This document shows positions 5,923 through 14,829 of a DNA stretch of 14,829 bases, piece by piece. The position numbers and the translations under genes are program-made. Within the stretch, counting starts at the first letter, position 1. Every line of letters begins with the position of its first letter. The notes under the pieces are model-generated. The model made no database searches. It worked only from the letters and a program-made list of their open reading frames with translations, and was not told the DNA's origin. Source of the DNA: Chitinophagaceae bacterium (GTDB lineage Bacteria; Bacteroidota; Bacteroidia; Chitinophagales; Chitinophagaceae). The stretch lies in contig JALOMX010000038.1 of assembly GCA_025455245.1 (NCBI GenBank), positions 1 through 14,829 of the forward strand. Reading direction: 5' to 3'.

Positions 5923-7659
5923 ATGACAGAACCGATGCGCACCCACATGATGGACCGCCTTTGGGAATTGCAATTAGCCAATGGTTACATTCGGGATGAG
6001 GATATTAAAAACCTTTCCGATGAGTTTAATCTTTCGTCCATTGAAATAGAAGGCGTTGTGTCTTTCTACCATTTCTTCCACCGCAAACCCACAGGGAAGT
6101 ACACCATATACCTCAACAACAGCATTGTGGCCGATCATAAAGGGTTTCAAAGGGTAAAAGAAACCTTTGAAAGGGAAACCGGCGCCACTTTCGGATCAGT
6201 TGACAGAACCGGCACTTTTGGCTTGTTCCTAACCCCCTGTATCGGGCTGAGCGATCATGAACCATCAGCATTGATAAACTTTCATCCTTTTACCCACCTG
6301 AATGCCATAAGGGTAAAAGACACCATTTCGGCATTACGGAGAGGCCTTGACGTTGATATGTTGTGTGATTCACCATCGGACAATTTGCGGTATGCCCCCG
6401 CCCCGGGTTCGGTTTTCTTTAAAAGTTTTGAGCCTGGCATGGTTCTGGAAAAAGCTTCAGTTCTTGGCAGTGATGGCATTCTTGATGAAATGAAGAAAGC
6501 CGAGCTCAGCGGTCGCGGAGGGGCCTACTACCCTACCTGGAAAAAATGGCTTGCAGCAAAAAATGCTCAGGGTGACACCCGATATGTAGTTTGCAATGCC
6601 GATGAAGGCGAGCCGGGCACCTTTAAAGACCGGGTATTGATGAACACCCGACCTGAAACATTGCTTGAAGGAATGTTGCTGTGCGGATACACCATTCAGG
6701 CGCCGCATGGTATTATTTACCTGCGGGGAGAGTATCGATGGCTGTTGCCAAAACTACAGGCTGCCATTGACAAATACAGGGAAGCCGGATTGCTTGGAAA
6801 GGATTGTGGAGGGATAAAAGGATTTGATTTTGACATCCGCGTGCAGATGGGCGCAGGTTCGTATGTATGCGGTGAAGAAACAGCCTTGCTTGAATCGCTT
6901 GAAGGCAAGCGTGGCGAGCCAAGGACAAAATGGTTTTTTCCTGTAGAAAAAGGATATCTTCAACAACCCACGGTTATCAATAACGTTGAAACGTTTTGCG
7001 CCGCAGCACGCATCATCGAAATGGGTTCGGAAGCATGGTGTCAGCTTGGCATACCGGGATCACCCGGCGTCAAGTTGTTGTCCGTTAGCGGCGATTGCAA
7101 GTTGCCCGGTATTTACGAAATTGAATGGGGCATGACGGTTGCAGAACTGCTTGAGTTGTGCGAAGCAGATGATCCTATGTATATTCAGATCAGTGGCCCA
7201 TCGGGTGAATGCATTTCCATAAAGGATAAATACCGCCGGATTTCCATGCTCGATTTGCTGGCAAGAAAAGATATCCGTTCAGGGGGGTCAATCATGGTTT
7301 TCAACAAAAGCAGGGACCTGGTAAAAGTGTTGCTTAATTTTTCTGAGTTTTTCAAAAGCGAAAGCTGCGGAATTTGTACGCCCTGTCGTGCAGGCAATTT
7401 CATTATTCAGCGAAAACTGGAAAGACTGGACCTTGGGCTTGCCAATGAAAAAGACCTTGAGGAATTGAAAAACTGGGGAATGATCATGAAAAATACGAGC
7501 CGCTGCGGACTTGGAAAAACAGCTACCAACAGTTTAATTTTTGCGATGGATAAATTTAGCGACTACTTCAAAGCAAGGCTGGATAAGGATTACAACGGCC
7601 TGAACCTGAAATTTGACCTGGAGGCAGCAACTGAAGCGTATGAACAGTATAAGAATTAA
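5923..7659 (+). CDS. hoxF: NAD-reducing hydrogenase diaphorase subunit HoxF
   Basis: Flavin-containing diaphorase subunit of a soluble group 3d-type [NiFe] hydrogenase; it exchanges electrons between NAD(H) and the iron-sulfur chain to HoxU. The 578 residues combine a NuoE-like N-terminal domain (about 1-145) and a NuoF-like domain (about 165-578), close to the usual HoxF length. NuoF signatures are CNADEGEPGTFKDR (224-237) and GAGSYVCGEETALLESLEG (310-328) for FMN and NADH, and C482, C485, C488 and C528 for the [4Fe-4S] cluster (SCGICTPCRAG, then SRCGLG). Two oddities: the NuoE-like part keeps only Cys106 of its cluster ligands (TPCIGLSDHEPSALIN), and the normally invariant GRGGAGFPTGxKW loop reads GRGGAYYPTWKKW (197-209). 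It is first in the hox cluster; no separate hoxE is present. The strong match outside these sites makes the assignment secure; electron-acceptor preference is less certain. Confidence 0.92.
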   Translation: MTEPMRTHMMDRLWELQLANGYIRDEDIKNLSDEFNLSSIEIEGVVSFYHFFHRKPTGKYTIYLNNSIVADHKGFQRVKETFERETGATFGSVDRTGTFGLFLTPCIGLSDHEPSALINFHPFTHLNAIRVKDTISALRRGLDVDMLCDSPSDNLRYAPAPGSVFFKSFEPGMVLEKASVLGSDGILDEMKKAELSGRGGAYYPTWKKWLAAKNAQGDTRYVVCNADEGEPGTFKDRVLMNTRPETLLEGMLLCGYTIQAPHGIIYLRGEYRWLLPKLQAAIDKYREAGLLGKDCGGIKGFDFDIRVQMGAGSYVCGEETALLESLEGKRGEPRTKWFFPVEKGYLQQPTVINNVETFCAAARIIEMGSEAWCQLGIPGSPGVKLLSVSGDCKLPGIYEIEWGMTVAELLELCEADDPMYIQISGPSGECISIKDKYRRISMLDLLARKDIRSGGSIMVFNKSRDLVKVLLNFSEFFKSESCGICTPCRAGNFIIQRKLERLDLGLANEKDLEELKNWGMIMKNTSRCGLGKTATNSLIFAMDKFSDYFKARLDKDYNGLNLKFDLEAATEAYEQYKN

Positions 7660-7672
7660 AATTTATTGTTTA

Positions 7673-7700
7673 GGGTTTTTTGTTGGGTGTGAAGGGAGGG
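7673..7700 (+). other. Four GGG runs, possible G-quadruplex
   Basis: Runs of GGG at 7673-7675, 7685-7687, 7694-7696 and 7698-7700 are separated by loops of 9, 6 and 1 nt on the coding strand, 14 nt after the hoxF stop. This could form a G-quadruplex in RNA or single-stranded DNA, though the first loop exceeds the common 7-nt limit. It sits between hoxF and the HoxU-HoxY gene, where a structure could alter the relative expression of the subunits. Confidence 0.25.
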
Positions 7701-7737
7701 TGTGAGATAGTAATGAGTTTAAAAATTGTAATTCCCC

Positions 7738-7769
7738 TTTGGAATTTGGAATTTGTTTATTTGGAATTT
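7738..7769. repeat. Triple TTTGGAATTT repeat
   Basis: TTTGGAATTT occurs at 7738-7747, 7745-7754 (overlapping by three bases) and 7760-7769, directly before the HoxU-HoxY start at 7782. The spacer is otherwise non-coding. Short A/T-rich iterations of this kind look like a dispersed intergenic repeat of the genome; a regulatory role is only possible. No Shine-Dalgarno sequence precedes the start codon. Confidence 0.6.
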
Positions 7770-7781
7770 AACTAATACATC

Positions 7782-9056
7782 ATGTCAGACCTTGTACATA
7801 TTACCATCGATGGTAAAAGCATTCAGGCTGAAAAAGGCCGTAACCTGGTGCAGGTAGCGAAAGAAAACGGCATCTTTATTCCCTCGCTATGTTATTATGA
7901 ACATATAGAACCTCCCCTTGGCACTTGCCGTGTTTGCACAAGCAAAATCAATGGAAAATACGCACCGGCATGTACTGAAAAAGTAAGAGAGGGATTAACG
8001 GTTGAGGTAAACACGCCCGACCTGAACGACACAAGAAAGGCATTGGTTGAGATGATGTTTGCTGAAGGGAATCATATTTGTCCGGCATGTGAAAAAAGCG
8101 GCAATTGCGATCTTCAGCACATGGGTTATGAACTTGGAATTTCCAATACAAGGTTTCAGCACCTGTTTAAAGACAGGCTGATAGATTTCAATCCCCAACG
8201 CATGATCATGGAACACAACCGTTGTATTAAATGCTTGCGTTGTGTTGTGGATGTAAAAACGGATGAGGGAAAAACTGTTTTTAATTATCAAAACCGGGGC
8301 AATGAAACCTATGTAGGCATTGATTATGAGCAGGAAGCCAAACTAACGGAAGAACAGGCTGTGAATGCCATGCATATTTGTCCGACAGGGGCTATTATTG
8401 TACGCGGAGTCAGCCTTTCTGCCCCTTTTGGCGAGCGTAAATTCGATATGGAATCTGTGCAGGAAAACTTCAACAAGAAAAAACCGGGGCTGCGCAAACG
8501 TGAGCCCGTTATGAGTAAAAAGATCGTTGCTACCGTTTCGCTTGCCGGTTGTTTTGGTTGCCATATGAGCCTGCTTGATATTGACACCGAATTGCTTGAT
8601 ATGGTAGAATTAGTATCATTCGATAAATCGCCGCTTACCGACTTCAAACACTTTACATCAAGATGTCATTTGGGTATCATTGAGGGAGGTGTATGTAACT
8701 CGGAGAACATTGAAACGTTGCGGAAATTCAGGGAACAGTGTGACATCCTTGTATCACTGGGTGAATGTGCTATCTGGGGAGGCCTGCCTTCTATGCGTAA
8801 CAGTATTCCGTTGAGTGAGTGTCTTGAAGAAGCTTACCTCAACTCGGCCACAAGCGAAGCAGGCGCCCATGTAGTTCCCTATCACGAAGACTTGCCAAAG
8901 ATTCTGGACCGTGTATATGCATGCAACGAAATTGTGAAGATTGATTATCACATACCCGGTTGCCCTCCTGATGCAAACCATATCTGGAAGACAGTGAAGA
9001 ACATTCTTTGGGGTGAAGAGTACTCGATCTTATATTCTGAGTTTAAATATGATTGA
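7782..9056 (+). CDS. hoxU-hoxY: Fused HoxU-HoxY subunits of NAD-linked hydrogenase
   Basis: One 424-residue ORF covers two normally separate subunits. Residues 1 to about 222 are HoxU (NuoG N-terminal-like). C37, C49, C52 and C64 suit a [2Fe-2S] cluster; H98, C100, C103 and C109 the His-ligated [4Fe-4S] cluster; C148, C151, C154 and C200 an N4-type [4Fe-4S] cluster. Residues 244-424 are HoxY, the [NiFe] small subunit, with GCFGCHMS (256-263; C257, C260), GECAIWGG (C329) and PGCPPDANHIW (C394) for the proximal cluster. Cys305 in EGGVC is an extra cysteine. The join is a polar linker of about 20 residues. Met244 sits at the join, but no ribosome-binding site precedes it. In the separate enzyme, HoxU belongs to the diaphorase half and HoxY to the hydrogenase half, so the fusion would tie them together. 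Domain calls are secure; whether one polypeptide accumulates in the cell is inferred from the open frame. Confidence 0.93.
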   Translation: MSDLVHITIDGKSIQAEKGRNLVQVAKENGIFIPSLCYYEHIEPPLGTCRVCTSKINGKYAPACTEKVREGLTVEVNTPDLNDTRKALVEMMFAEGNHICPACEKSGNCDLQHMGYELGISNTRFQHLFKDRLIDFNPQRMIMEHNRCIKCLRCVVDVKTDEGKTVFNYQNRGNETYVGIDYEQEAKLTEEQAVNAMHICPTGAIIVRGVSLSAPFGERKFDMESVQENFNKKKPGLRKREPVMSKKIVATVSLAGCFGCHMSLLDIDTELLDMVELVSFDKSPLTDFKHFTSRCHLGIIEGGVCNSENIETLRKFREQCDILVSLGECAIWGGLPSMRNSIPLSECLEEAYLNSATSEAGAHVVPYHEDLPKILDRVYACNEIVKIDYHIPGCPPDANHIWKTVKNILWGEEYSILYSEFKYD

Positions 9057-9234
9057 TTTTTTGTTTATTATTTATGGTTCAGGGTATATTCTTTAGTTCA
9101 AACATCTCATTAAATTTTACACACATCAACCTCGTACATATAAATCACACTAACCATAAACAATAAACCATAAACACCAGATACAACACACCAACAATAA
9201 ATACCAAACCATAAACCAAAAAACAACTATTAAC
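9057..9234. repeat. A/C-rich spacer with AACCATAAAC repeats
   Basis: The 178-bp gap before hoxH has no gene. AACCATAAAC is repeated at 9152-9161, 9166-9175 and 9207-9216. An inverted relative occupies 9061-9079 and pairs with 9152-9170 at 17 of 19 positions, which could fold a long hairpin with a loop of about 70 nt. From about 9120 to the hoxH ATG the plus strand is nearly free of G, so the leader of hoxH should be largely unstructured. That can aid translation in organisms that rarely use Shine-Dalgarno sequences, and none is seen here. Function is unproven. Confidence 0.6.
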
Positions 9235-10686
9235 ATGACACAAAAAATAACGATTGATCCCGTAACGCGTGTTGAAGGCCACGGACGGGTTACCATCCAT
9301 CTCGATGAATACGGACAGGTGAAGGATTCATTTTTTCACATTGTTGAATTCAGGGGATTTGAGCGGTTCATACAAGGGCATCCGTATTGGGAAGCGCCTG
9401 TACTGGTGCAAAGGCTTTGCGGTATTTGCCCGGTTAGCCATCACCTTGCTGCCGCCAAAGCCATTGATCAGCTCGTGGGTATTGATCCGGAAAATCTTTC
9501 TCCCACTGCAACCCTGCTTCGACGGTTGATGCATTTCGGACAAATGTTTCAATCGCACGCCCTGCACTTTTTTTACCTCGCTTCCCCCGATCTCTTGTTT
9601 GGCGTAGATGCACCTGCTGAAAAAAGAAATGTTGTGGCTGTTGCCGAAGCTAACCGTGACCTCGCCATAAAAGGCATTACCATGCGCAAGTTCGGACAGG
9701 AGATTATCAAAGCAGTTGCGGGTAAAAAAATACATGGTATACTTGCCGTACCGGGTGGTGTACATAAAACCTTCTCGCAGGAAGAAAGGGATTACTTCCT
9801 TGATGGAAAAAATATCGAAAGCATTGATACCATGATCGAATGGTCAATGGGAATGATTGATTTCATAAAAAGTTACCACGAGGCCAATCATAAATTCCTC
9901 GATGAATTTGCTTCCTTCCCGTCGGGTCACCTTGGCATGGTGAGAAGTGATGGCGCTATGGAAATGTATCATGGAAAGCTGAGGGCTGTAGACTTTGAGG
10001 GAAATTGCACCCTTGATGATATCAGTACAGACGAATATCAGGAGTATTTTCTGGAAGCGGTTGCCCAATGGTCATACATGAAGTTTCCCTATTTAAAAAA
10101 TCTTGGGAGGGATAAAGGATGGAACAGGGTTGGCCCACTTGCACGTATAAATGTGTGCGACTACATCCCTACTCCGTTGGCTGAGAAAGCCCGTCAGGAT
10201 TTTATAGCCTTTACAGGAAAGAAAGTAAATAACAGCACTATGTTTTCGCATTGGGCACGCCTGATAGAAATCCTGCACAGTGCAGAGATTATGCGCGAAA
10301 TATTACTTGACCCTGAGCTTTTCGGAAATGACCTGGTACGTAAAGGTGAACCCCGTTATAAAGGTATTGGAATTATTGAAGCACCAAGGGGTACATTGAC
10401 CCACCATTATGAGGTTGATGAAAAAGGCATGATCACAAAATGCAATTTGATTGTAAGTACTACGCACAACAACGATGCGATGAACAATGCCGTAAAATGG
10501 GTGGCAAACAATGTTATCAGCAGGAAAGGGCATGTTACAGATGGTATGCTGAATCAGGTGGAGGTTGCCATCCGCGCCTACGACCCCTGCCTGAGTTGTG
10601 CCACACAGGCATTGGGTAAAATGCCTTTGAAGGCTGAATTATATAGCCATAAAGGAGAACTGATAGATGAAAGAACAAGAAACTGA
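9235..10686 (+). CDS. hoxH: NAD-linked [NiFe] hydrogenase large subunit HoxH
   Basis: Carries the Ni-Fe active site that splits or forms H2, paired with the HoxY half of the preceding protein; cytoplasmic. The N-terminal RVEGHGR (12-18) and the L1 motif RLCGICPVSHH (60-70) supply Cys62 and Cys65. The C-terminal L2 motif DPCLSC (450-455) supplies Cys452 and Cys455, so all four metal-binding cysteines are present. The 483-residue length and the tail ALGKMPLKAELYSHKGELIDERTRN in two blocks (459-468 and 469-483) fit a precursor that is trimmed at its C-terminus after nickel insertion. The residue before the expected cut is Gln458 (CATQ, codon CAG), where His is usual. Its processing protease gene overlaps the 3' end. 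Group 3d assignment follows from the hoxF-U-Y-H arrangement and motif context. Confidence 0.96.
   Translation: MTQKITIDPVTRVEGHGRVTIHLDEYGQVKDSFFHIVEFRGFERFIQGHPYWEAPVLVQRLCGICPVSHHLAAAKAIDQLVGIDPENLSPTATLLRRLMHFGQMFQSHALHFFYLASPDLLFGVDAPAEKRNVVAVAEANRDLAIKGITMRKFGQEIIKAVAGKKIHGILAVPGGVHKTFSQEERDYFLDGKNIESIDTMIEWSMGMIDFIKSYHEANHKFLDEFASFPSGHLGMVRSDGAMEMYHGKLRAVDFEGNCTLDDISTDEYQEYFLEAVAQWSYMKFPYLKNLGRDKGWNRVGPLARINVCDYIPTPLAEKARQDFIAFTGKKVNNSTMFSHWARLIEILHSAEIMREILLDPELFGNDLVRKGEPRYKGIGIIEAPRGTLTHHYEVDEKGMITKCNLIVSTTHNNDAMNNAVKWVANNVISRKGHVTDGMLNQVEVAIRAYDPCLSCATQALGKMPLKAELYSHKGELIDERTRN
10651..10657 (+). promoter_or_regulatory. Shine-Dalgarno-like site for hoxW
   Basis: AAAGGAG lies inside the 3' end of hoxH, 9 nt before the hoxW ATG at 10667. 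It is one of the few clear Shine-Dalgarno-like sites in the window and supports both that start and the 20-bp overlap with hoxH, where translational coupling is likely. Confidence 0.6.
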
Positions 10687-11158
10687 GGATATAAAAATAT
10701 TACTGCTTGCCATTGGCAATAGTGGGCGCGGAGATGATGGTCTCGGCTGGAAATTAGGAGATTTGATTGCTGAATCGGGCTTTAAAGAAGTTTCGGTTGA
10801 ATACAGATATCAGTTACAGGTCGAAGATGCTCAATTCATTACCCATTATGATGCCGTAATATTTTCTGATGCAACCGAGCAGCAAAATGAAAAGGGATTT
10901 TCATTCAGCAAATGTATTCCGGCCAACACCTACTACTACTCATCCCACCGGCAGAGTCCGGAAACAGTTCTTTATTTATCCAATGAACTTTATGGAAAAT
11001 TTCCCGAAGCATGGATTCTGGCAATCAGCGGTTATAACTGGGAACTTGGGGAGGGTCTGAGTGAACATGCGGAACAGAATTTAAACAAAGCATTTTTTGC
11101 GCTGCAAGGCATTTTGGAAAGCCATATCAGAACTACAGTTCCGGAGACAGTTGAATAA
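10667..11158 (+). CDS. hoxW: Hydrogenase maturation endopeptidase HoxW
   Basis: Nickel-sensing aspartic-type endopeptidase of the HyaD/HybD/HycI/HoxW family that removes the C-terminal tail of the large subunit once nickel is inserted, closing the active site. The 163-residue protein shows the family's AIGNSGRGDDGLG opening (15-27) and the likely nickel-contacting residues Asp23, Asp68 (IFSDAT) and His94 (SSHRQSP), corresponding to Glu16, Asp62 and His93 of HybD. The gene overlaps hoxH by 20 bp and has its own Shine-Dalgarno-like site, so it is very probably dedicated to HoxH. This matters because its substrate has Gln, not His, before the cut site. The 109-bp gap after it separates the hox genes from the Ech genes. 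Confidence 0.88.
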   Translation: MKEQETEDIKILLLAIGNSGRGDDGLGWKLGDLIAESGFKEVSVEYRYQLQVEDAQFITHYDAVIFSDATEQQNEKGFSFSKCIPANTYYYSSHRQSPETVLYLSNELYGKFPEAWILAISGYNWELGEGLSEHAEQNLNKAFFALQGILESHIRTTVPETVE

Positions 11159-11267: not shown

Positions 11268-13133
11268 ATGGAAAGTTATTTGTCCGGCCTTTTTTTTCTA
11301 CCTCTTCTGGTCAGTCTTTTATTGCTCATTCTTCCAAAAAACCTGGTAAAACCTTTGGTTATTGTTGCTGCAGTGGCATTGTCTGCAATGTCTGTTATAG
11401 CATTCAGCAACATATCAGGTGCACAATACATTACCGCCCCGGATTATACGAATAATATAGTATTTGGACTCGATGTACTGTTGCTTTGCTTTTTTGGATG
11501 GGTAGCTATTCAAAGAAAAAGTTTATGGGTTGGTATATTAAGTGTGGTTCAGTTAGCCGGACTGATCTACCTGTTCTTCAACCTTTCCCATACACAATCT
11601 GCACAGTTGATGGTAGATGAATTAAGCGGGTTCATGTTCATACTGATCAATGTCATCAGCAGCATTATTGCCATTTTCTCCCTGAAATATATCGAACAGG
11701 AAGATTGCAGTCCTTTCAGAAGAAAATATTTCCTGTCCATAATTTTCTGGTTTATAGCAGCCATGAACCTTGTGGTATCAGCCGACAACCTTGAATACTT
11801 TTTCCTGTTTTTTGAATTGACCACATTGGCTTCCTATCTTCTGATCAGTTTCAGGAAAGATGAGGTTTCAGAAAAAAATGCAGTCACCGCATTATGGATG
11901 AATCAGATTGGCGGAGTAGCCTTGTTAAGTGCCATCTTTTATATTCACCTGAATCAATTGGGTGATATTACATTCACCAATTTGCTTTCAAACACCGGAC
12001 AACAGGCTATTTTATTACCGCTTGCATTCATCAGCATAGCAGCCCTTATCAAAGGCGCTCAAATGCCCTTCAGTAAATGGTTGCTTGGGGCTATGGTAGC
12101 TCCTACTCCTGTGAGCGCTTTACTGCATTCAAGCACCATGGTTAAAATTGCACCCTTTGTTATCCTACGTCTTTCGCCGGCATTAAAAGACACTTCACTT
12201 TCAATGGTTATCATAGGGCTGACTGCCTTTGTGTTTGTGGCAGCAGCTTTAGGTGCTTTGGCTCAGGATAATTTTAAACGGATCCTTGCCCACTCCACTA
12301 TTGCCCTGCTTGCCCTTATGATAATGATGGCGGCCTTGGGTACACCAACTACTACCATTGCCGCATTAGTCCTGATCCTTTTCCATGGAATTTCAAAAAG
12401 TATGCTATTCCTCAATGCCGGGATACTTGAAAAGGTCTTTCATATGAAAGAAACTTCGGATATGGACCGTCTGAGCGAAACAGGCCCCTTCACCGCCATG
12501 GTCATGATCATTGGTTTTATGAGCCTTTTATTGCCTCCATTCGGTGCATTTATTGGTAAATGGCTAAGCATTGAAACCCTGGGAAGTTTTGCCATTGAAT
12601 CGAAACTGCTTGGCGCGCTAACCATTGTGGCAGTGGCCTTCGGCGGGGCCATCCTTACCTTGCTTTACTTTAAGGTAATCGGGGTACTGATAAACCGTTC
12701 GGGAGAAACCGATAAAATCAGTTTTGAAAAAACAGGTATGATATACCGTGCGACCATGTACATGCTCCTTGGTATTATTACTTTCAGTATTTTCGGATTG
12801 CCATGGTTGTTAACACAATATTTTTCACCGGTTTCAGAGGCGACTTTGCAGCAAGCCGCGACCGTTACATCAGAAGGATGGAATATGCTCATCGGATCAG
12901 TAAGCCTTCCCATTGTACCATTGGCTATTGCATTTCTGATGTTGCCTGCCACCTTATTGACGGCCATGTTTATCAGGTTTAAGAATGTGGACCGCGCAAA
13001 AGAGTATATGTGCGGTGAAAAGGTTAATTATTCGTTTGGATCGTTTTACTTTTCTACCGAGGTGGCAACACCCTGGTTTTACTCAATAGGCATCGCATTT
13101 TTTCTGGCCATGCTCATGGTATCACTTTTATAA
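11268..13133 (+). CDS. echA: Ech-type hydrogenase antiporter-like subunit EchA
   Basis: A 621-residue polytopic membrane protein of the NuoL/MrpA-like family, with about 15-16 hydrophobic segments. It is the ion-translocating subunit of a group 4 energy-converting hydrogenase. Conserved charged residues sit within the helices as expected: Glu183 (FFELTTLASYLLI), Lys262 (ALIKGAQMPFSKWL), Lys293 in the HSSTMVK segment, His373/Lys377 (FHGISKSML) and Lys431 (FIGKWL). The C-terminal cytoplasmic EYMCGE (579-584) followed by FGSFYFSTE matches the ending of Ech/Coo-type subunits better than NuoL or Mrp proteins. It starts an EchA-B-C-D order like that of described ech operons. The ATG at 11268 begins directly with a hydrophobic segment and lacks a clear Shine-Dalgarno site. 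Proton versus sodium specificity cannot be read from this alone. Confidence 0.88.
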   Translation: MESYLSGLFFLPLLVSLLLLILPKNLVKPLVIVAAVALSAMSVIAFSNISGAQYITAPDYTNNIVFGLDVLLLCFFGWVAIQRKSLWVGILSVVQLAGLIYLFFNLSHTQSAQLMVDELSGFMFILINVISSIIAIFSLKYIEQEDCSPFRRKYFLSIIFWFIAAMNLVVSADNLEYFFLFFELTTLASYLLISFRKDEVSEKNAVTALWMNQIGGVALLSAIFYIHLNQLGDITFTNLLSNTGQQAILLPLAFISIAALIKGAQMPFSKWLLGAMVAPTPVSALLHSSTMVKIAPFVILRLSPALKDTSLSMVIIGLTAFVFVAAALGALAQDNFKRILAHSTIALLALMIMMAALGTPTTTIAALVLILFHGISKSMLFLNAGILEKVFHMKETSDMDRLSETGPFTAMVMIIGFMSLLLPPFGAFIGKWLSIETLGSFAIESKLLGALTIVAVAFGGAILTLLYFKVIGVLINRSGETDKISFEKTGMIYRATMYMLLGIITFSIFGLPWLLTQYFSPVSEATLQQAATVTSEGWNMLIGSVSLPIVPLAIAFLMLPATLLTAMFIRFKNVDRAKEYMCGEKVNYSFGSFYFSTEVATPWFYSIGIAFFLAMLMVSLL

Positions 13134-13142
13134 TCCGGCAGT

Positions 13143-13982
13143 ATGACAAATATGTATATATCAATCATTCTCATCATTGCAGCTCCTCTGATCGGAGGCC
13201 TGTTGTATGGATTTGAACGCATCGTAAAAGCCCGGATGCAGCGGAGAATAGGCCCCCCATTACTTCAGCCATTTTATGACTTTTTTAAACTGGCAGACAA
13301 AAGGAAAATGGTAGTGCATTCCGCTCATGCCTTTCTGGGCATCATGCATTTCATTTCACTTTGGTTTGCATTGGCTGTTTTATTGCTTGGCGGCGATCTC
13401 ATCCTCGTCATTTTCCTGCACCTGCTTTCCTCTGCCCTGCTTATTCTTTCAGCTTACAGCACAAGGTCAGTATTCAGCCATCTCGGTGCCAACAGGTCTG
13501 CCATCAGCATCCTTGCATACGAACCGGTACTGATCATTATTGCTGTTTCCATTTTTATGTTGACCGGTAGCTTTGAAGCAGGCGCGGCTTTTAGCAGCAA
13601 CCAACCGCTTTTGTACAAAATGCCCCTTGCATTTGTAGCTTTGCTGTTGGTACTTCCTATTAAACTGAAGAAATCTCCATTTGATGTAGCGGAAGCACAT
13701 CAGGAGGTGACCGGAGGGGTGGAACTGGAATTCTCAGGTATTTTTTATGAAGCTGTGTACACGGCAAAATGGCTTGATTATGTTTTTTGCTATACACTCA
13801 TTTTTCTTTTTGCCGGGAGCAATTTGCTGCTTGGTTTTGCATTAAGTATTTTCACATTTATTTATCTGAATGCACTTGACAATTCAACGGCCCGTGTCAA
13901 TTACAAACAGATGCTACGATTTTCACTCGGTGTTTCCTTTTCACTCGCATTCATTAATTTATTAATAAACAGTTTGTCATGA
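13143..13982 (+). CDS. echB: Ech-type hydrogenase NuoH-like subunit EchB
   Basis: A 279-residue integral membrane protein related to NuoH/HycD/CooK, which anchors the peripheral hydrogenase arm and links redox chemistry to ion transport. Motifs are ERIVKARMQRRIGPP (25-39) followed by LLQPFYDFFKLADK (40-53), the signature first cytoplasmic loop, and SPFDVAEAHQEVTGG (178-192), the acidic loop equivalent to that of NuoH. About eight hydrophobic segments are visible, and the length fits Ech/Hyc versions, which are shorter than NuoH. It starts 9 nt after echA; its stop overlaps the echC start in an ATGA arrangement, showing tight operon organisation and probable translational coupling. Confidence 0.92.
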   Translation: MTNMYISIILIIAAPLIGGLLYGFERIVKARMQRRIGPPLLQPFYDFFKLADKRKMVVHSAHAFLGIMHFISLWFALAVLLLGGDLILVIFLHLLSSALLILSAYSTRSVFSHLGANRSAISILAYEPVLIIIAVSIFMLTGSFEAGAAFSSNQPLLYKMPLAFVALLLVLPIKLKKSPFDVAEAHQEVTGGVELEFSGIFYEAVYTAKWLDYVFCYTLIFLFAGSNLLLGFALSIFTFIYLNALDNSTARVNYKQMLRFSLGVSFSLAFINLLINSLS

Positions 13983-14491
13983 ACCTTTCAGGCTATAGAA
14001 AAAAATCTCCGTGGATACTTCATTACAATGCCGGCAGTTGCAATGGCTGCGACATTGAAATTCTGGCCTGCCTTGGCCCCAAATATGACATTGAAAGATT
14101 TGGCATGATCAATACGGGTAACCCGAAGCAGAGTGATATTTTACTCGTTACCGGGCCCGTTACCAAACGCTCGCGTGAAAGATTGGTGGAGATATATGCA
14201 CAGATGCCGGAACCCAAAGTGGTTATTGCCTGTGGCGCTTGTGCTTCAACGGGAGGTGTATTCAGGGGTATGTATAACTGTGAAGGCGGAGTTGACCAAT
14301 ACATTCCCGTAGATGTATATGTATGCGGATGCGGAACAAGACCGGAGCAAATTATTGATGGTGTAGTACAGGGGCTTGCCATTCTTGAACAGAAGACAAA
14401 AGAATTGGAAGCTTCGGTAAAATTGAATAACGAAGCTATTGAAGAAAATCATCAGGTAAACAGAAGACATATTGCAGCATCTATTAAATAA
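13979..14491 (+). CDS. echC: Ech-type hydrogenase small subunit EchC (NuoB-like)
   Basis: The 170-residue NuoB/CooL-like small subunit should hold the [4Fe-4S] cluster next to the Ni-Fe site, at the junction with the membrane arm. The likely ligands are Cys21 and Cys24 (GSCNGCDIE), Cys88 (CGACASTGG) and Cys118 (CGCGTRPE). Two extra cysteines sit three and two residues before the last two ligands (Cys85 and Cys116), and the usual GCPxRPE end reads CGCGTRPE, lacking the proline after the ligand. The final 35 residues form a polar charged tail. The start overlaps the echB stop by 4 nt. The NuoB family is clear; hydrogenase versus hydrogenase-like complex depends on the large subunit beyond the window. 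Confidence 0.9.
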   Translation: MNLSGYRKKSPWILHYNAGSCNGCDIEILACLGPKYDIERFGMINTGNPKQSDILLVTGPVTKRSRERLVEIYAQMPEPKVVIACGACASTGGVFRGMYNCEGGVDQYIPVDVYVCGCGTRPEQIIDGVVQGLAILEQKTKELEASVKLNNEAIEENHQVNRRHIAASIK

Positions 14492-14502
14492 AACATGGTG
14501 GC

Positions 14503-14829
14503 ATGAATAAAATTGAAACCAATATTGATAATCTGAAAAAAGACATCAGTAATTTTTACCGGCCCGACAAGCATCATTTCATGGTAATGAATGCTGTAGA
14601 AGTGGGAACACAAATGGAAGTACAATGGTTTTTTGCAGATTATGAACCACCGGCTGAAATCACCTGCTTTTATACACTCATCGATCCTGCGACTGAGGTA
14701 CCAAGCATCAGGGATATTGTACTAAGCGCCTGGGTAGCCGAAGCAGAACTTGTTGACCTGATGAACATACATATTGAAGCAACGGAGAAAGGATTTGTGC
14801 TGGAACCGGATTCGGAAAGCGGACCTCTG
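14503..14829 (+). CDS. echD: Ech-type NuoC-like subunit EchD, 3' truncated
   Basis: An open frame from the ATG at 14503 runs off the window after 109 codons. It resembles the NuoC / 30-kDa domain found in EchD or at the N-terminus of HycE-like proteins: HHFMVMNAVEVG near the start, a central FYTLIDPATEVPSIRDIV, and a C-terminal part resembling the NuoC signature region (AEAELVDLMNIHIEA, then GFVLEPD). The ERExxDxFGI consensus is degenerate here (EAELVDLMNI). It lies 11 nt after echC and fits the echA-B-C-D order. Whether it ends as a separate EchD or continues into the large subunit cannot be seen. Confidence 0.8.
   Translation, partial: MNKIETNIDNLKKDISNFYRPDKHHFMVMNAVEVGTQMEVQWFFADYEPPAEITCFYTLIDPATEVPSIRDIVLSAWVAEAELVDLMNIHIEATEKGFVLEPDSESGPL

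Follow-up and report, generated by a model that had tools for sequence, protein, structure and literature searches.

On its forward strand, the window (the whole 14,829-nt stretch of DNA that was analysed) carries a Hox-type operon in the order hoxEF-hoxUY-hoxH-hoxW, and relatives retain this order over the stretch that their contigs cover. The hoxEF gene (5923..7659, +) encodes a NuoE-like domain without its four cysteines, fused to a HoxF with an FMN/NADH site and the [4Fe-4S] ligands C482, C485, C488 and C528; Pfam recognised Complex1_51K, NADH_4Fe-4S and 2Fe-2S_thioredx in this protein, and residues 1-160 hold only Cys106 and Cys148. It is followed by the 424-aa fusion gene hoxUY (7782..9056, +), by hoxH (9235..10686, +), which encodes the [NiFe] large subunit with the motifs RLCGIC and DPCLSCATQ, and by a hoxW-like gene (10667..11158, +) for a hydrogenase maturation protease that scored above the TIGR00072 cut-off. 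Outside the fusion, membrane hydrogenase-type genes occupy 11268..14829 (+) and encode NuoL/MrpA-like, NuoH-like, NuoB/MbhJ-like and NuoC-like proteins, the last cut by the contig end. The gaps that flank hoxUY are 122 nt (7660-7781) and 178 nt (9057-9234) long, with a GC content of 0.30 and 0.28 versus 0.44 for the window; these are long gaps, as spacings below 20 nt were found among the relatives (window counted) in 27 of 47 cases between hoxEF and hoxUY and in 61 of 67 between hoxUY and hoxH.

The original prediction held that HoxU and HoxY are joined in one continuous frame, and translation bore this out: the 424 codons of 7782-9056 (+) run without a stop. The HoxU domain (residues 1-226; 7782..8459, +) carries one [2Fe-2S] motif, two [4Fe-4S] motifs and a PFGxRKFD tail motif; the linker (residues 227-243; 8460..8510, +) is variable in sequence; and the HoxY domain (residues 244-424; 8511..9053, +) contains the ligands of the proximal [4Fe-4S] cluster. 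Pfam searches with the 424-aa protein placed Fer2_4 at residues 4-78, NADH-G_4Fe-4S_3 at 85-124, Fer4_Nqo3 at 143-205 and Oxidored_q6 at 257-407, and alignment to the solved H. thermoluteolus enzyme matched residues 7-226 to 5xf9_B (HoxU) and 247-424 to 5xf9_C (HoxY). Four sets of residues are invariant across 54 aligned fused proteins (C37, C49, C52 and C64; H98, C100, C103 and C109; C148, C151, C154 and C200; C257, C260, C329 and C394), and we take their assignment to the individual clusters from the family motifs. By domains, alignments and invariant ligands, both the HoxU cluster motifs (to C200) and HoxY are complete, as had been claimed. The separate HoxU and HoxY chains of 5xf9 have 242 and 189 aa, a sum about equal to the 424 aa of HoxUY, which indicates that nothing large was gained or lost at the joint.

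Two structure models of HoxUY were computed, both as monomers and thus silent on the complex. The first reached a pLDDT of 65.4 and a pTM of 0.40, with linker residues 232-243 as one of several low-confidence stretches; the second, made from an alignment that included stand-alone HoxU and HoxY, reached 84.2 and 0.59, and in it residues 231-240 had a pLDDT of 58, as low as that of residues 281-290 and above that of the last residues. Fold searches matched the modelled domains to the HoxU and HoxY chains of 5xf9; among the 50 rows listed per search, no chain closely covered both domains, and the few long alignments had an rmsd of at least about 17 Å.

A contig scan with one genome per species yielded 76 related loci, or 77 with the window, and one uninterrupted frame spans both domains in 72 of these 77. 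The five exceptions are four loci that end at contig edges (L066, L075, L077 and L079) and one with a broken frame (L074); the stop or frame break between the domains that the original prediction had named as evidence against itself was found in the linker of none of the other 72. Furthermore, a protein database search with HoxUY returned 1121 proteins at E 1e-3, and the best 120 of the 1121, which were examined, are all 402-432 aa long with both domain sets, so that the proposed check for equal-length matches spanning both domains came out in favor of the fusion. Some frame-broken copies also occur in the database (e.g., P0123/P0252 and P0166/P0270), each of these pairs on equally long contigs, and the tails of the HoxU pieces P0252 and P0270 are out of frame or end early.

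Because the MAG to which this contig belongs is only 78% complete, an assembly or sequencing error could be suspected of having joined two genes; however, the fusion is common to the 72 loci, including three whose record titles name a strain (L015, L046 and L076), and lies on long contigs in L010 (3.09 Mb) and L071 (1.55 Mb). The isolates Ginsengibacter hankyongi BR5-29, Flavivirga rizhaonensis RZ03 and Robiginitalea marina 2V75 carry the gene. This recurrence refutes the reading as an artefact, and the chance of such an error in this contig is negligible. If translation of HoxY also, or instead, began inside the gene, at Met244 or a different codon of the linker, two proteins would be made, a possibility that had likewise been raised against the fusion and that gains from the ATG that the window has for residue 244, the point at which the nearest stand-alone HoxY proteins begin. 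However, only 18 of the 72 fused proteins have a Met at this residue, and residues 227-247 contain no ATG, GTG or TTG in 35 of the 72 fused genes (ATG in 23), from which it follows that internal initiation is not conserved. A start in the linker was preceded by an SD-like 4-mer in 3 of the 72 fused genes, and a missing SD is weak evidence in Bacteroidota. To judge from the sequence, internal initiation is unlikely in the window itself, and production of two proteins in this manner is considered quite improbable. Post-translational cutting of the linker, which would yield the usual four-chain enzyme, is regarded as improbable: a linker that is variable in sequence and modelled at low confidence could be exposed to proteases, but no common cleavage motif was seen by eye in the linker rows of the 72 proteins, and the HoxW-like protein is the only protease among the window proteins scanned. 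We infer that HoxUY is produced and left uncleaved in the cell.

The type of the enzyme was also weighed, as the subunits could belong to a Mvh/Vhu-like (group 3c) or HydABCSL-like electron-bifurcating hydrogenase and not to an NAD-reducing Hox enzyme. The best NCBIfam names are VhuA for HoxH (410 bits) and VhuG for HoxY (112 bits), both below the cut-off, HydL and HydS of 7t2r are the second-best PDB matches, and HydA of 7t2r matches the HoxU part by sequence slightly above 5xf9_B (129 versus 124 bits). On the other side, the best PDB match of HoxH is 5xf9_D, and 5xf9 is also the best match of the HoxY part and HoxEF by sequence and of the HoxU part by structure; the operon has a HoxF partner with an FMN site, its NuoE-like domain lacks the cluster cysteines as in C. 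necator HoxF and unlike HydC, and an Hdr-like protein was found in 0 of the 9 window proteins scanned. A separate HydC with a [2Fe-2S] cluster and a full-length HydA, the traits of HydABCSL, are absent, as the NuoE-like domain is fused to HoxF and its four cysteines are missing. Sequence traits of group 3d were found in a HoxH that groups with known HoxH, a HoxF with FMN/NADH site and [4Fe-4S] cluster, the cluster-less NuoE-like domain, the one [2Fe-2S] and two [4Fe-4S] motifs of HoxU, and the proximal [4Fe-4S] ligands of HoxY; the separate HoxU and HoxY chains described for this group, which do not define it, were not. A group 3c or HydABCSL-like identity is therefore judged most improbable.

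The linker had been proposed to replace an N-terminal extension of stand-alone HoxY, and this was not upheld. Stand-alone HoxY proteins outside the fused set have 179-197 aa, are 58-67% identical to the HoxY part of the window and in most cases open with MSKK or a similar sequence whose place is that of Met244 or close to it (e.g., P0181, MSKKIVATTSLAGC), and the linker prolongs the HoxU tail. Stand-alone HoxU proteins, which are 42-51% identical, end about 15 residues past a P(I/V)GxRxYD motif (tails read for 31 of the best 120 HoxU matches), and the fused protein retains this motif as PFGERKFD. Junctions of separate genes were read in 13 of 15 loci, with L084 taken from the annotation and the L154 genome (= L140) from spacing and stop. 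The hoxU tail, one stop, a spacer of a few bases and the hoxY start all lie in the same frame in L137, L138 and L139; the hoxU stop overlaps a start by 4 bases in L085, L094 and the C. necator annotation; and in L143 and L146 one of several possible starts overlaps it by 4 bases. A stop separates hoxU and hoxY in all 46 of the 46 separate pairs checked, and the distance between the conserved ends is 49-79 nt (median 58; 71 loci) in fused genes and 30-126 nt (25 loci) in separate ones. Read in this way, the linker is the HoxU tail plus a read-through junction. The same-frame or overlapping junctions and the like distances indicate that losing a single stop could be enough to create the fusion, with the frame adjusted in some ancestors: in adjacent, probably translationally coupled hoxU and hoxY, the hoxU stop would have been lost and the short junction read through. 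Because tblastn joined U and Y in L008, L093, L121 and L122, another fusion, arisen independently in the paralogous (type B) operon, was considered as well; it was ruled out by stops between U and Y in the translations of L008, L093 and L121, and a stop was found in L122 too.

The full joint was seen in Bacteroidota, Balneolota, one Rhodothermaceae MAG, one Polyangia MAG and a nested group of Xanthomonadales/Lysobacterales/Woeseiaceae MAGs; in a Pirellulaceae MAG (L079), the HoxU part alone precedes the contig end. This range of taxa suggests that horizontal transfer has spread the fusion, and single MAGs may be mis-binned. The full fused frame is present in 7 of 395 genomes sampled from the phylum and 6 of 198 sampled from the order (own genome included in both), and separate HoxU/HoxY pairs occur in at least 18 genomes of the phylum sample, counted from best matches (17 loci, L093-L109, plus the second operon of the same MAG). 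The phylum of the Polyangia MAG gave 1 of 282, which is that MAG, and 17 other matching genomes with separate genes or a stop between; the order of a gammaproteobacterial MAG gave 5 of 200, including that MAG and G581, both known beforehand, and 5 other matching genomes with separate genes. The phylum, order and gammaproteobacterial-order samples, as well as the set that holds G580, partly repeat genomes of the 76 loci. Four plasmid records had one place covering 80% of the query, from C. necator (twice), Lichenicola and Acaryochloris, and the three that were inspected have separate hoxU and hoxY genes; no phage record covered 80% of the HoxUY query.

Three trees bear on whether the fusion arose once or repeatedly. 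The HoxH tree had 83 rows (71 fused, 12 separate; window included) after removal of duplicates and incomplete HoxH; in it, the fused rows form one side of a branch with an SH-aLRT of 93, and they group with C. necator, Lichenicola and L094, at a starred support of 100, against the other 9 separate rows. A HoxU+HoxY tree, made without the window, held 53 fused rows (18 of 71 dropped as near duplicates), 25 separate SH-type rows and 7 outgroup rows; here the fused rows are again on one side of a branch (100/100), inside the separate SH-type, and their neighbors are L140 (weak, 88/65) and C. necator (99/96), both on long branches. A HoxY-only tree (178 columns, quick method, window included) kept 64 of the best 120 matches and left out fragments and N-truncated rows, as recognised by motif position. 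It was less clean, with 10 changes needed, 5 of them forced by starred branches, and a starred set of 85 rows holds the fused ones plus 11 unfused besides C. necator and P0195. Eight of these 11 lie on contigs shorter than 3 kb and could be fragments of fused proteins; P0123 and P0166 lie on contigs as long as those of the HoxU pieces P0252 and P0270; and P0147 is a row to which neither account applies. P0159, P0173, P0190 and P0238 may be genuine cases of secondary splitting. Most likely, the fusion arose once, inside the separate-subunit C. necator-type enzymes, and two of the three trees agree with this.

Taken together, these data indicate, with a probability of roughly 0.87, that hoxUY encodes a real fused subunit, most likely of single origin, and that the enzyme, an NAD-linked [NiFe]-hydrogenase of the C. 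necator/H. thermoluteolus type (SH, group 3d-like), consists of three chains, HoxEF, HoxUY and HoxH, with its halves tethered. The fused HoxUY is conserved and genuine; it goes beyond a peculiarity of a single contig but does not amount to a new kind of system.

The C-terminal motif DPCLSCATQ of HoxH is shared by the window and 44 other HoxH of the fused clade (45 of 71); the last position is His in 25 of 71 fused and 12 of 12 separate proteins (one of the 71 not read), and the Gln/His switch is one change on the HoxH tree. An excerpt of PMC2670836 describes protease-processed [NiFe] large subunits as cleaved always after DPCxxCxxH/R, a rule that the window HoxH, with Gln at the cleavage position, does not fit. 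The same MAG has a conventional Hox operon on contig C326, with separate HoxE, HoxF, HoxU (235 aa), HoxY (180 aa) and HoxH; two small unrelated frames lie there between hoxU and hoxY (L081, G000:C326, 3473-4674), and the matched parts are 1.4 kb apart. G580 has fused and conventional operons on one 3.09-Mb contig, and in L008, L009, L012 and L014 a divergent conventional operon adjoins the fused one, which places two NAD-linked hydrogenases side by side. NuoL/H/B/C-like genes follow the fused operon in the Chitinophagaceae-type loci L005, L007, L008, L009, L011, L015 and L061. Further downstream, L005, L008, L011, L015 and L061 encode a NuoD-like large subunit whose CGLC and DPCLSC motifs point to a group 4-type membrane hydrogenase, and L005 continues with HypA, a ferredoxin-like protein and both subunits of a 2-oxoacid:ferredoxin oxidoreductase. 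A ferredoxin-to-H2-to-NADH loop is possible in these loci. A wider proposal is tentative and rather doubtful: the fused clade would be a distinct, obligately coupled subtype of three chains, with no free diaphorase or HoxYH and, among the members sampled, mostly Gln at the HoxH maturation site, and in Chitinophagaceae it would be wired to the co-encoded group 4 membrane hydrogenase and 2-oxoacid:ferredoxin oxidoreductase, with intracellular H2 carrying electrons from ferredoxin to NADH.

In the proposed electron route from H2 through HoxH, HoxUY and HoxEF to NAD+, electrons from H2 at the HoxH [NiFe] site would pass to the [4Fe-4S] cluster of the HoxY domain, to the HoxU-domain clusters within the same chain, and on to the HoxF cluster and FMN, where NAD+ would be reversibly reduced. 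The fusion would keep the hydrogenase and diaphorase halves joined in a 1:1 ratio, and permanent tethering at a fixed ratio, as originally suggested, is probable from the anatomy of the protein. In excerpts of the literature, the moieties of separate-subunit enzymes are described as able to dissociate in R. opacus in vitro (PMC3189943), and the Synechocystis halves as coming apart in vitro and in vivo (PMC7363133). A benefit of tethering may be presumed; however, it is not obvious, because the C. necator enzyme remains intact without a fusion (PMC3189943, excerpt). The original prediction did not know this architecture as typical. A search of the open-access literature by titles and abstract starts, with subscription papers mostly outside its scope, found no description of a natural HoxU-HoxY fusion, but among relatives the joint is widespread. 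In the passages retrieved, the string "hoxUY" denotes gene sets or an engineered photosystem I-hydrogenase construct. In Synechocystis, a separate role for free HoxEFU is described as an open question (PMC7363133, excerpt), and a natural lineage with inseparable HoxU and HoxY offers a ready test of that role. The fused HoxUY could also serve as a design template for stabler NADH-regenerating hydrogenases, and hoxUY, as a single gene, could mark this hydrogenase in metagenomes of Bacteroidota, where the database names of the fused protein are inconsistent (F420-reducing hydrogenase gamma subunit/ferredoxin, diaphorase moiety small subunit, 2Fe-2S protein).

Among known systems, bifurcating NiFe-HydABCSL (7t2r) has HydS, HydL and a HydA N-terminus homologous to the window subunits, but it consists of five separate chains, its HydA has 692 aa versus the 226 aa of the HoxU part, and its HydC keeps a cluster (PMC8880783, excerpt). 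The cyanobacterial-type HoxEFUYH enzymes and the C326 operon of the same MAG have homologous subunits, with a separate HoxE that has its cysteines and with separate HoxU and HoxY, and the C326 copies are 34% (U) and 40% (Y) identical to the fused protein. The Cupriavidus necator H16 SH, encoded on pHG1, likewise has the order F-U-Y-H-protease and a HoxF with a degenerate NuoE-like domain, described as lacking cluster N1a (PMC3189943, excerpt), and its subunits are 48% (U), 52% (Y) and 50% (H) identical to the window proteins; however, its hoxU and hoxY are separate genes with a 4-base overlap, and its HoxY has about 27 extra N-terminal residues. The closest solved match is the NAD+-reducing hydrogenase of Hydrogenophilus thermoluteolus (5xf9/5xfa, HoxHYFU), which has the same domain set and in which, as the original prediction stated for known group 3d enzymes, HoxU and HoxY are separate proteins (chains B and C), whereas here they form one chain.
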